A DNA stretch of 64,000 nucleotides. Origin: an uncultured Pelagibacteraceae bacterium. GTDB lineage: Bacteria; Pseudomonadota; Alphaproteobacteria; Pelagibacterales; Pelagibacteraceae. The stretch covers positions 248,001-312,000 of the forward strand of contig CACNQD010000001.1 in assembly GCA_902622545.1 (NCBI GenBank). The letters run 5' to 3'. Positions 7,362 through 13,195 of this stretch are shown here, piece after piece. Position numbers and translations under genes: made by a program. Positions within the stretch are counted from its first letter, which is position 1. Every line of letters begins with the position of its first letter. The notes under the pieces were generated by a model. The model was not told where the DNA came from. It was given only the letters and a program-made list of their open reading frames with translations, and made no database searches.

Positions 7362-8573
7362 TTAAACCTTTTCAAATACTAAAGTAGCATTAGTTCCACC
7401 AAAACCGAAACTGTTAGACATTACAGAATTTAAGTTAACATCTTTTTCAACTTTAGTTACTATTGGGTAATTTTTTGCTTCATCGTCCATATCCTGAATA
7501 TTTGCAGATGCAGCAATAAACTTATTTTTCATCATTATTAAACTATAAACTGCTTCATGAACTGAGGTTGCGCCTAATGAGTGACCTGCTAAAGATTTGG
7601 TTGAGCTTATTTTTGGTTTGTAATCTTTAAAAGCCTCTCCAACCGCTTTTAATTCTGTTATATCTCCAACTGGAGTAGATGTTCCATGAGTATTTATATA
7701 ATCGATTTTATTATTTGTCGTGCTTAATGCCATCTGCATACATCTTACCGCTCCTTCTCCTGATGGAGCAACCATATCGTAACCATCAGATGTAGCACCG
7801 TAACCAGTTAATTCTGCGTAAATTTTTGCACCTCTAGCTTTTGCGTGTTCATATTCTTCTAAAACTAAAACTCCGCCTCCACCAGATATAACAAAACCAT
7901 CTCTTGTTTTGTCATAAGGTCTTGATGCTTTTTCTGGAGTATCATTATATTTGGATGATAGTGCGGTCATAGCGTCAAACATAGCTGTCATTGCAAAATG
8001 AACTTCATCACTTCCACCAGCAAAAATTATTTTTTGTTTTCCTAATTGAATTATCTCCATTGCATTTCCAATACAGTGACCGCTTGTTGCACATGCAGAA
8101 CTTATTGTATAATTAATTCCTTTAATTTTAAATGGTACAGCTAGGGTTGCTGATGCCGTACTTGACATTGTTCTTGGAACAATAAAAGGCCCCATACGTT
8201 TAGGATTTTTTGCTCTAGTTTTGTCTGCTGCTAAAATAACATTTTCTATAGACGGACCACCAGATCCCATAATCATACCAGTTGAAGTGTTACTTACATC
8301 TTTTTCTTCTAGGCCTGCGTCTTTAACTGCTTCTGCCATAGAAATATAATTATAAGCTGATCCTGGTCCCATAAATCTAATAAATTTTCTGTCCACATGA
8401 TCTTCGAGATTAATATTTGGCTTGCCATGCACGTGGCTCTTTAAATTATATTCTTTGTATTCTTCTGAAAAAGAAATTCCTGATTTTGAATTTAATAGAG
8501 ATTGATAAACTTCCTCTTGATTGTTACCTAAACAAGAAACAACACCTATCCCTGTTACAACAACTCTTTTCAT
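7362..8573 (-). CDS. fabB: 3-oxoacyl-ACP synthase (FabB-type)
   Basis: Ketosynthase [16 protein letters not shown] active-site Cys, [21 protein letters not shown]; paired with fabA. Confidence 0.93.
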
Positions 8574-9073
8574 TATTTAAATAAACCTACTTTTAAATTT
8601 TCAGTGGAATAAATTTTTTTGCCGTCTGCTAGTAAAATTCCATTTGCTAATCCGACAGTAGTACCTTCTTTTATAAGAACTCTCTTCATATTAATTTCAT
8701 AAACTGCTTTTTTGACATTTTTAAGAACTTCGCCAGTAAACTTTACTGTGTTAACTCCTAGAGCTCTTCCTCTTCCAGGATTTCCCAGCCATCCCAAATA
8801 AAATCCTACAAGCTGCCACATAGCATCTAACCCAAGGCATCCTGGCATTACAGGATCTTTTTTGAAATGACAGTCAAAAAACCATAGACTATCTTTTATA
8901 TCCAATTCAGCAACAATAAATCCTTTGCCAAATTCTCCTTTGTTTTCACTAATTTCTGTGATTCTATCAAACATCAACATTGGAGGCGCAGGTAATTTTG
9001 CGTTGCCTGGGCCAAAAAGATCTCCATTGGCACAACTGATTAAATCTTCGTAAGTGTACGAGCTTTTTTTCAT
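8573..9073 (-). CDS. fabA: 3-hydroxydecanoyl-ACP dehydratase/isomerase
   Basis: [44 protein letters not shown]. Confidence 0.96.
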
Positions 9074-9123
9074 TTTTCGATATCCTTAATACTTGATTTA
9101 GCAAAAATATAATATAGATTTAG

Positions 9124-9140
9124 TTTAGAATAGTTATAAA
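9124..9140. promoter_or_regulatory. Irr/Fur-family-like palindrome TTTAGAA-TAG-TTATAAA upstream of irr (and between irr and fabA)
   Basis: Imperfect 7-3-7 palindrome with the same half-sites as 9610-9626 upstream of katG. Confidence 0.5.
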
Positions 9141-9145
9141 TTACT

Positions 9146-9565
9146 ATGTTTGATAATAGCCAATATATTGAAAAATTAAGAAGCTCTGGCTTAAGACCGA
9201 CAAAACAAAGAATAAAAATTTGTGAAGTTCTATTCGATTCAGAAAAGACTTTTCATTTTACTATCAACGAACTTGTAAAAAGAATAAGTAAGTCAACAAA
9301 TGACAAAATCTCACTTGCAACTGTTTATAACACAGTTCATGCTTTCAAAAATAAAGGTTATTTAAAAGAGATACCAATTAATTCTGATCAAAGTTATTTT
9401 GATACCAATACGTCGCATCACCACCATTTTTATGATGAGACTCAAAAAGATTTAATTGATATAGATGATGCAGACGTTGAGCCAGTTAAAATTAATACAA
9501 GAATTCCTGGAAAAAAAATCAAGTCAGTAGAAGTACTTGTTAAAGTCGAAGACGACAAATCTTAA
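9146..9565 (+). CDS. irr: Fur-family iron/heme response regulator, Irr-type
   Basis: LRPTKQRIKICEVLF, SLATVYNTVHAFKNKGYLKE, SYFDTNTSHHHHFYDE; no C-terminal CXXC; divergent from fabA-fabB-fabI as in other alphaproteobacteria. Confidence 0.85.
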   Translation: MFDNSQYIEKLRSSGLRPTKQRIKICEVLFDSEKTFHFTINELVKRISKSTNDKISLATVYNTVHAFKNKGYLKEIPINSDQSYFDTNTSHHHHFYDETQKDLIDIDDADVEPVKINTRIPGKKIKSVEVLVKVEDDKS

Positions 9566-9582
9566 TTCAATTTCTACATTAT

Positions 9583-9626
9583 AATAGTTCTAAACTATTG
9601 ACAAATTTATTTAGAATTATTATAAA
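9583..9626 (+). promoter_or_regulatory. katG promoter TTGACA-N17-TATAAA with two overlapping palindromes
   Basis: TTGACA 9598-9603, TATAAA 9621-9626; AATAGTT-CTA-AACTATT 9583-9599 (perfect) abuts the -35; TTTAGAA-TTA-TTATAAA 9610-9626 covers the -10. Confidence 0.65.
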
Positions 9627-9644: not shown

Positions 9645-11879
9645 ATGAGCACAGAGTTCAGAAATAAAGATTTCAAAAATATAGAATTAAGCAAATGCCC
9701 AGTAACAGGTGCAGGAACAACAGCCAAGTTTTCTGCAGGCAGAGGACAATCAAACAGAGACTTTTGGCCAAATAGTTTAAATTTAAAGATATTAAGCCAG
9801 CATTCTAATCTCACAAATCCAATGGATAAAAAGTTTAATTATGCAAAAGAATTTAAGAAATTAAATTACAAAGCTTTAAAGAGAGATTTAACAAAATTAA
9901 TGACAGATTCACAAGAATGGTGGCCAGCAGACTATGGTCATTACGGACCTTTTTTTATTAGACTGGCTTGGCATGCGGCTGGTACTTACAGAACTGGTGA
10001 TGGTAGAGGTGGAGCTGGAACAGGCAATCAAAGGTTTGCACCATTGAATGCTTGGCCGGATAATGTCAATTTAGATAAAGCAAGATTATTACTTTGGCCT
10101 ATTAAACAAAAGTATGGAAAACAAATTTCATGGGCTGATTTATTTATTTTAGTCGGAAATGTAGCTTTAGAGTCAATGGGTTTTAAAACTTTTGGTTTTG
10201 GCGCAGGAAGAGTTGATATTTGGGAACCAGAAGATGATATTTACTGGGGATCTGAAAAAGAAATGTTAGGTGTTGAAAGATACAGTGGAAAAAGAGATTT
10301 AGAACAACCACTTGGAGCTTCACATATGGGATTAATTTATGTAAATCCTCAAGGTCCAGATGCAAATCCTGATCCTCTTCTAGCTGCTCATGATATTAGA
10401 GAAACTTTTGGAAGAATGGCAATGAACGATTATGAGACTGTTGCTTTAGTTGCTGGAGGTCATACATTTGGAAAATCACATGGTGCAGCATCTGAGTCTC
10501 ATAAAGGTCCAGATCCAGAGGCATCAAGAATTCAAGATCAATCGACTGGATGGAATAGTAATTACAAATCAGGAAAAGGCGTCGATACTATAAGCAGTGG
10601 TATTGAAGGTGCATGGACACAGTCACCTATAAAATGGGATATGGGTTACTTTGATTGCTTATTTAATCATGAATGGGAATTAACAAAAAGCCCTGCAGGA
10701 GCTCATCAGTGGACACCAAAACAAAATGGCCAAAAAATTAAAATGGTTCCCGATGCTCATGATAAAAACAAAATGCATCCACCAATGATGCAAACAACAG
10801 ATCTTTCTTTAAGAATGGATCCTTCGTATGGACCAATATCAAAACATTTTTACAACAACCCTAAAGAATTTGCAGACGCTTTTGCAAGAGCATGGTTTAA
10901 ATTAACTCATAGAGATATGGGTCCAAAAGCATGTTACTTGGGTAACGAGGTGCCAAAAGAAGAGTTAATATGGCAAGATCCAGTAAAAAAACCAAAATAT
11001 AAATTGAGGAAAAGCGATATTAAAAGCCTAAGATCCAAGATATCTAAATCTAAATTGTCTGTGTCAGAGTTAGTAAGCACAGCTTGGGCATCAGCTTCAA
11101 CTTACAGAGGATCAGATAAAAGAGGTGGAGCTAATGGAGCTAGAGTTACTTTAGAACCACAAATCAGTTGGGATGTTAATGATCCAAAACAGATTAATAA
11201 AGTTATTAAAATTTTAGAAAAAATTAAAAACAAATTCGACAATAAGAAAAAATCTGTTTCGTTAGCTGACTTGATTGTGCTAGGAGGAAACGTAGGTATT
11301 GAAATGGCAGCTAAAAAAGCAGGCATTAAGTTAAATGTACCTTTCTCTCCAGGAAGAGGAGATGCTTCACAAGAACAAACTGATATCCATTCGTTTGGTC
11401 TTTTAGAGCCACAAGCTGATGGATTTAGAAACTATAATAGCGATGAGACATCTACAGTTTCAGCTGAGGAAAAGTTGATAGACAAAGCACAATTGATGGG
11501 TTTAACAGCTCCAGAAATGACAGTTCTTGTTGGTGGTATGAGAGTGTTAGATACTAATTTTGATCATTCAAAAAATGGAGTTTTAACTAAAAAGCCAGGA
11601 ACTTTAACAAACGACTATTTTGTCAATCTTCTAGATATGAATACTACTTGGAAAGAAACAGATAAATCTGAACAATTGTTTGTGGGAAAAGATAGAAAAA
11701 CAGGTAAAGTTAAGTGGCATGGTACTAGAGTGGACTTAATATTTGGTTCAAACTCGCAATTGAGAGCATTAGCAGAGGTTTATGCATGCAATGATTCATC
11801 TAAAAAATTCGTTAACGACTTTGTTTCAGCATGGACAAAAGTCATGAATTCTGACAGGTTTGATCTAAAATTAAATTAA
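9645..11879 (+). CDS. katG: Catalase-peroxidase
   Basis: [29 protein letters not shown] (Trp-Tyr-Met adduct residues), [16 protein letters not shown]; two-domain length 744 aa. Confidence 0.98.
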
Positions 11880-11883
11880 TAAA

Positions 11884-12495
11884 ATGGAAACTGCACTTAA
11901 TACACCTAAAGTAAGCTTTGAAGATTTTTACGAAGTACCTAACTTAAAATTTGATATTGAAAAACTTAGAGCTGATTTAGATAAAATTCTTGAAGAAAAA
12001 AAGTTTAATTCCCCAGGAGTTACACACTTTGGTGCAATACCACTTAACCAGATACCTAATGATGAGAATTCTATAAAAGGTAATAATATAAGAGGTAAAT
12101 ACTGGACTATAGCAGATGAAACAGGAAAAGAAGTTTCAAGAGATGTAGAAATTGACGAGTCTAAATACACTAAACTTTTACCAGAATTTGAAAAAACATA
12201 TTTTAAAGAAGTTTATGAAACTTTAAGTAAAAAGTTTAAATTAGGAAGAGTAAGATTATTATTAAAAGAACCAAGATCTACTTTAAGTTGGCATAAAGAT
12301 CCAGAGTGTAGATTACATGTACCAATAATAACAAACCCAGGTTGTTCGATGGTAATAGAAAACGTTGCAAAACATTTGCCAGCTGACGGGAAGGTTTGGA
12401 TAACAAATAACACTAAATACCATAATTTTTTTAACGGAGGGGAGCAAGCAAGAATACACTTAGTAGCGTGTGTATTAGATAGTCCGTTTAAGTAA
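11884..12495 (+). CDS. Aspartyl/asparaginyl beta-hydroxylase-like 2-oxoglutarate dioxygenase
   Basis: TLSWHKDPECRLHVPI (HxD) with distal NGGEQARIHLV; ATG 4 nt after katG stop. Confidence 0.65.
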   Translation: METALNTPKVSFEDFYEVPNLKFDIEKLRADLDKILEEKKFNSPGVTHFGAIPLNQIPNDENSIKGNNIRGKYWTIADETGKEVSRDVEIDESKYTKLLPEFEKTYFKEVYETLSKKFKLGRVRLLLKEPRSTLSWHKDPECRLHVPIITNPGCSMVIENVAKHLPADGKVWITNNTKYHNFFNGGEQARIHLVACVLDSPFK

Positions 12496-12740: not shown

Positions 12741-13195
12741 TTACCCCACAAATATTCATTATTAATCCATCCTACATAGTTTCCAGTTTCCACTTTAAAC
12801 CATTTTTTTTCTTCTTTTTTAACAATCAATAATCTACCGCTTTTAATTACTGCTATTGGTGTTGAATATTTTGTAGAATTTTTAAAAAGTATTTTTTCTT
12901 GAAGTGTAATTAATGATTTGTTTTTTTTAAGTTGAGATCTATGAACCCATCCACCATTATTTCTATAATCTAGAATTTTTCTAAAATTTTCTTTTTCATC
13001 AATTATTTCAACTGGAAAATTTTTTTTTAAGTATACAAATTTAATTGGGTAGTCTAACCCAGGACCATATCTTACATTTACCTTATTATATTTCAAAGAA
13101 AGAAAGTAATTTTCTTCTGCTTTTGTATCATTTAAAAAAATTAAAAAAAAAAATATAAAAATTATCCTAAACGTATTTATTATATTAAATCGCAT
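12737..13195 (-). CDS. Secreted SH3-like domain protein
   Basis: Signal-peptide-like N-terminus, KVNVRYGPGLDYPIKFVYLKKNFPVEII, GGWVHRSQL, GWINNEYLWG. Confidence 0.75.
   Translation of the reverse strand: MRFNIINTFRIIFIFFFLIFLNDTKAEENYFLSLKYNKVNVRYGPGLDYPIKFVYLKKNFPVEIIDEKENFRKILDYRNNGGWVHRSQLKKNKSLITLQEKILFKNSTKYSTPIAVIKSGRLLIVKKEEKKWFKVETGNYVGWINNEYLWGN

Follow-up and report, generated by a model that had tools for sequence, protein, structure and literature searches.

A putative Irr operator conserved before irr and the adjacent, exchangeable peroxidase gene in SAR11 bacteria

The window, that is, the whole 64-kb stretch of DNA analysed here, comes from an AT-rich, 1.15-Mb SAR11 genome of the family Pelagibacteraceae. 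Within it, fabI, fabB and fabA are read leftward and irr and katG rightward (Table 1), with start codons at 9146 for irr and 9645 for katG as read from the sequence. The divergence of fabA and irr is kept at nearly all irr loci of the family and at several other alphaproteobacterial loci. The candidate irr promoter is only suggestive, because matches of this kind occur at chance level in such an AT-rich stretch. Control of fabA, raised as a possibility in the initial annotation, found no footing, the sole minus-strand promoter candidate touching the box being within chance. The fabA–irr gap also contains TACTTGATTTA (about 9090–9102), which is kept across most genera and may be part of the fabA promoter. 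On the far side of katG, a gene resembling aspartyl/asparaginyl beta-hydroxylases starts 4 nt past the katG stop and is possibly co-transcribed with it.

Table 1. Features of the irr–katG locus, in window coordinates.
Feature	Position	Strand	Basis or remark
fabA, divergent neighbour of irr	8573..9073	-	NCBIfam fabA above cut-off; not claimed as target
Candidate irr promoter, TTAATA-N16-TATAAT	9086..9113	+	Consensus scan, 10/12
Putative Irr box before irr, TTTAGAATAGTTATAAA	9124..9140	+	Just 3' of the candidate -10
irr, Fur-family regulator, 139 aa	9146..9565	+	Pfam FUR; best NCBIfam model IrrA
Upstream Irr-type box, ATTATAATAGTTCTAAA	9578..9594	+	Ends 3 nt before the katG -35
Perfect palindrome, AATAGTTCTAAACTATT	9583..9599	.	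From the initial annotation; no operator in its own right
katG promoter, TTGACA-N17-TATAAA	9598..9626	+	TTGACA 9598–9603, TATAAA 9621–9626
Main putative katG Irr box, TTTAGAATTATTATAAA	9610..9626	+	Overlaps the -10
katG, catalase-peroxidase, 744 aa, slot after irr	9645..11879	+	NCBIfam cat_per_HPI, 1151 bits
Aspartyl/asparaginyl beta-hydroxylase-like gene	11884..12495	+	Pfam PF05118, 37.7 bits

The irr product scores 78 bits against the Pfam FUR profile (PF01475, cut-off 23.1). Its best two NCBIfam models are IrrA (132.2, cut-off 150) and Irr (120.4, cut-off 170), those for PerR and Fur scoring far lower. As the curated Irr cut-offs are not reached, we call the protein an Irr-like ortholog on account of its model rank, its synteny and the box, and not a certified member. 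The family comparison covered 117 genomes, many of them incomplete, of which 76 encode katG and 65 an irr ortholog (strong match). All 65 SAR11 Irr proteins share residues H37, D86, H92, H94 and D105 without exception, and H93, the middle position of the HxH cluster, is present in 64. In the alignment, the five invariant residues match the iron site of PerR and the His-cluster of Bradyrhizobium japonicum Irr, a residue correspondence already described (PMC4700492). The PerR cysteines of the Cys4 structural zinc site are unmatched in the aligned region of SAR11 Irr; 27 of the 65 proteins have no cysteine at all and 55 have one at most. The window Irr lacks the Cys-Pro haem regulatory motif, its single Cys26 being followed by Glu; that motif is of the Bradyrhizobium type and not general to Irr. 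No OxyR-grade match was found (the lone LysR-type match reached 41 bits, the cut-off being 329), which favours a local Irr switch for the peroxidase.

The exact motif TTTAGAAN3TTATAAA occurs only twice in the window, before irr and before katG, precisely where the initial annotation had placed it; 100 dinucleotide shuffles of the window gave a mean of 0.03 matches and a maximum of 1. The likeness to the rhizobial Irr box also holds, both sites being one mismatch from the symmetric TTTAGAAN3TTCTAAA (ICE). The perfect palindrome at 9583–9599 is present as described, but its reading as a second operator was rejected: perfect 7-3-7 palindromes number 19 in the window and 14.4 ± 3.5 in the shuffles, so this one is within chance, and relatives do not retain it. 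The conserved register is instead the box at 9578–9594, five bases upstream.

Conservation of the katG box follows irr. All 48 genomes with both genes carry irr directly 5' of katG, with a gap of 37–128 bp measured to the first aligned KatG residue. Of these, 45 have the exact box and 47 a box with no more than two mismatches, the latter as compared with two of 19 katG promoters from genomes without irr. Fisher's test on this contrast gives 9 × 10−13 with kinship ignored, relatives being non-independent samples; the joint loss of box and irr in several lineages is therefore the stronger point. Thus, fabA faces katG directly in three genomes (G001, G049 and G077) that lack both irr and box, and the box is degenerate in two more with katG and no irr (G062 and G073). 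The exception is G006 (83% complete), in which an exact box is kept and no irr was found. At six SAR11 loci (L027, L029, L030, L031, L034 and L038) irr seems to have been deleted from between fabA and katG, katG staying in place. With genus weights, the 14 specified columns of the katG box are conserved at 0.99–1.00 and the flanking columns mostly at 0.35–0.8, values somewhat inflated because sites were selected for having at most one mismatch to the pattern. Most irr loci of the family retain the irr box, as do most members of a set of 80 named genomes (single-cell genomes and MAGs); it is less constant than the katG box and shows decay in genus g2 and in part of g4. This footprinting in katG-positive relatives, in which the box stands while the flanking DNA drifts, supports by comparison the autoregulation of irr and the direct control of katG by its neighbouring regulator that had been predicted from the window.

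At katG promoters, the second half-site is nearly always TTATAAA and not TTCTAAA, and the likely -10 hexamer falls within it. A TTGAC lies at a near-fixed distance 5' of the box in most relatives, with another spacing in part of g4. On the simplest view, one half-site serves as operator and -10 at once. A second Irr-type box is found upstream in 12 promoters of katG or of the rubrerythrin gene (rbr), the window's included, at a centre distance of 30–32 bp (32 bp in the window), about three helical turns. It is missing in most irr–katG genomes.

Across the 117 genomes the exact motif is not enriched, with 142 matches against 194 for the reversed control. The matches cluster by location, however, 76 of the 142 lying within 650 bp of an irr start. 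Away from the locus there are 0.62 exact boxes per genome with irr and 0.50 without. We rejected such counts as proof of a large regulon because they do not exceed the control; the exact-motif search misses weaker boxes, so a larger regulon is possible. The other exact matches of the window's genome (C3:5211, C4:198038 and C7:4487) and a one-mismatch site at 12969 of the window fall inside or at the ends of coding sequences and not in evident promoters. The symmetric core TTAGAAYNRTTCTAA occurs in eight of the 117 genomes, four times at irr–katG; the remaining four genomes share no target. In one genome (G014), an exact Irr-type box (L274:1507–1523; C42:19306) is followed after about 27 bp by the start of a gene for a 1-Cys peroxiredoxin, possibly a third peroxidase target, seen in this genome only. 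In another (G026), two copies of TTAGAATTATTCTAA stand 129 bp apart (L240 and L242; C1:76168 and 76297), inside a long stretch without an evident gene.

The slot after irr is not always filled by katG. In 16 irr genomes of the family that lack katG, rbr follows irr directly. These are the only genomes among the 117 with rbr, which is always next to irr, and katG and rbr never occur together, an exclusivity with a chance probability of 5 × 10−9 if the genes were independent. The SAR11 rubrerythrin is a protein of 137–138 aa (PF02915) below the NCBIfam cut-off for full-length rubrerythrin, and wherever the sequence is long enough the next gene encodes an Fe-S oxidoreductase. Family rbr promoters mostly have box variants, often the same one or two boxes; in several the boxes are weak only, or upstream only. 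The irr-bearing SAR11 lineages therefore split cleanly into a katG type and a rubrerythrin type. A second collection of 80 named genomes, which overlaps the first set, comprises 51 irr–katG and 27 irr–rbr genomes, with neither assigned in two.

Among irr loci taken from a set of 190 alphaproteobacterial genomes, rubrerythrin is the next gene in most, and five irr–rbr loci from other Alphaproteobacteria (L255, L257, L268, L290 and L298) have a canonical ICE with no mismatch. One genome of another family (G224) has irr–katG with the box. Two loci from two other alphaproteobacterial families, L340 (G243) and L341 (G262), show the order katG and then an irr homologue, so that katG and irr are linked there as well, though arranged differently. 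The irr-linked SAR11 proteins form two clades in the KatG tree, with other alphaproteobacterial KatGs between them, and a single clade is rejected (p-AU 7 × 10−32, the groups having been named after a tree was seen); katG has thus reached the irr slot at least twice. Since irr followed by rubrerythrin, with a canonical box, is found widely in Alphaproteobacteria, katG probably replaced rubrerythrin. The irr–rbr arrangement would then be ancestral and katG secondary, a direction that we infer from the comparison of loci.

We consider it likely that these features form a local two-promoter regulon, in which Irr represses irr and the next peroxidase gene and the slot has been refilled by katG with the operator kept. 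The boxes, their positions and conservation, the linkage to irr, the exclusivity of katG and rbr and the two KatG clades are observed; binding, repression and signal are inferred. An Irr dimer would bind TTTAGAAN3TTATAAA just 3' of the irr -10 and across the katG -10; in this and some other lineages a second dimer would sit against the -35, some three helical turns farther upstream. Repression is implied because the box spans the katG -10 and lies just past the candidate irr -10: bound Irr would block RNA polymerase, and irr and the following peroxidase would stay low until Irr is inactivated. The invariant His/Asp cluster may be oxidised in a haem- or iron-dependent way, and the resulting inactivation of Irr would release both promoters and supply a peroxide-removing enzyme. 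In the B. japonicum cluster, haem-derived iron activates H2O2 (PMC4700492); this chemistry and the invariant residues make haem plus oxidant a plausible signal, by analogy, for SAR11 Irr. The slot, ancestrally occupied by rubrerythrin, would have been refilled with katG at least twice in SAR11 behind the same operator. Points that weigh against this reading are the weak or upstream-only boxes of several rbr promoters, the exact box of G006, the Irr model scores below cut-off and, in P. ubique, irr mRNA and Irr protein levels that stayed unchanged when iron was limiting (PMC2864753).

Some alternatives concern the protein or its action. Binding of the boxes by another Fur-family protein, Fur itself or a third paralogue, is allowed by the presence of three such proteins in the window's genome and has a parallel in Magnetospirillum, where Fur binds the katG promoter (PMC3251581). 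We nevertheless regard it as improbable, as the motif is the known Irr target and the box tracks irr and not fur, being absent at katG of G001, G009, G022 and G040, all with a Fur-like match and no irr. Slightly less probable still is that Irr activates katG from the upstream box. Activation by Irr does occur, depending on box position (PMC7762939), and the upstream box abuts the -35, but that box is missing in most irr–katG genomes, while the near-universal one overlaps the -10, where a bound protein should block polymerase. A further alternative is that the box is chiefly a -10 region, conserved and AT-rich, which resembles ICE by accident. It would fit the overlap of TTATAAA with the -10 and the lack of genome-wide enrichment. 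This we judge very improbable: the upstream half TTTAGAA is equally invariant outside the -10, the box before irr does not overlap the candidate -10 of that gene, katG promoters without irr are mostly boxless, and the class-level version of the box is the symmetric ICE.

An iron or haem economy calls for the same regulator and operators as our preferred reading and differs in the signal alone. Irr would repress the iron-costly KatG (haem) and rubrerythrin (di-iron) when these are short, peroxide having no direct part. Iron in both slot enzymes fits this account, as do the release of DNA-bound apo-Irr by haem (PMC7762939) and the Irr repression of bfr and a rubrerythrin-like gene in B. japonicum (PMC3413700). 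Against it, none of the sites examined placed a box in the promoter of a typical iron gene, and off-locus boxes are about as frequent without irr as with it. We take SAR11_0399 to be the irr-linked rbr of P. ubique, because G026, which we take to be HTCC1062, has only one rbr. Its mRNA rose 1.57-fold under iron limitation, and irr and fur went with stationary phase and not with iron (PMC2864753), a poor fit to plain low-iron repression. We hold this economy to be a serious contender, if somewhat short of probable. A peroxide signal fits at least as well, because the non-haem rubrerythrin shares the operator and because of the rbr rise. We tentatively propose that SAR11 Irr is a dedicated peroxide switch, an analogue of PerR, whose regulon consists only of irr and the adjacent peroxidase gene and whose operator outlived its enzyme, with unrelated peroxidases (rubrerythrin and two KatG lineages) installed behind it more than once.

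SAR11 rank with the most abundant bacteria of the sea, and which organisms remove peroxide from the ocean is a live ecological question in which katG counts as a leaky function. The Irr regulator, its ICE boxes and its control of genes for oxidative stress were already known (PMC3413700, PMC7762939), as was katG in offshore SAR11 (PMC12636525). Our literature search, which did not cover the regulon predictions of Rodionov et al. 2006, returned no report of Irr-controlled SAR11 katG or of katG/rbr exchange, and the arrangement of an exchangeable enzyme behind an Irr box appears undescribed. It suggests one local peroxide-defence switch that goes on working while the enzyme behind it is replaced, a regulator–operator pair that persists through the exchange, and offers a testable account of how SAR11 control the irr-linked peroxidase.

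PerR, as in Bacillus subtilis with its catalase genes, is a Fur-family repressor of its own gene and of peroxide enzymes. Its five metal-site residues match SAR11 Irr, which nevertheless lacks the Cys4 zinc site in the aligned region and scores far lower with PerR models than with Irr models. The rhizobial Irr/ICE regulons (Bradyrhizobium, Rhizobium, Brucella) involve the same protein family by best profile score and the same TTTAGAAN3TTCTAAA-type box, and the fabA synteny is found in part of the class; autoregulation of Brucella Irr is reported in a title cited in PMC2864753. By contrast with these regulons, the exact SAR11 box marks essentially one locus and not many iron genes, one of its half-sites departs from symmetry throughout where it also serves as -10, and the window Irr is without the Cys-Pro motif. 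Rhodobacter sphaeroides Irr likewise has a small regulon, both boxed genes (mbfA and ccpA) acting in oxidative stress defence (PMC3413700), but these targets are other ones, with no katG or free-standing rubrerythrin among them and no binding at the katE upstream region. In Magnetospirillum gryphiswaldense, too, a Fur-family protein acts at the katG promoter (PMC3251581); the regulator there is Fur, whereas the SAR11 box tracks irr.
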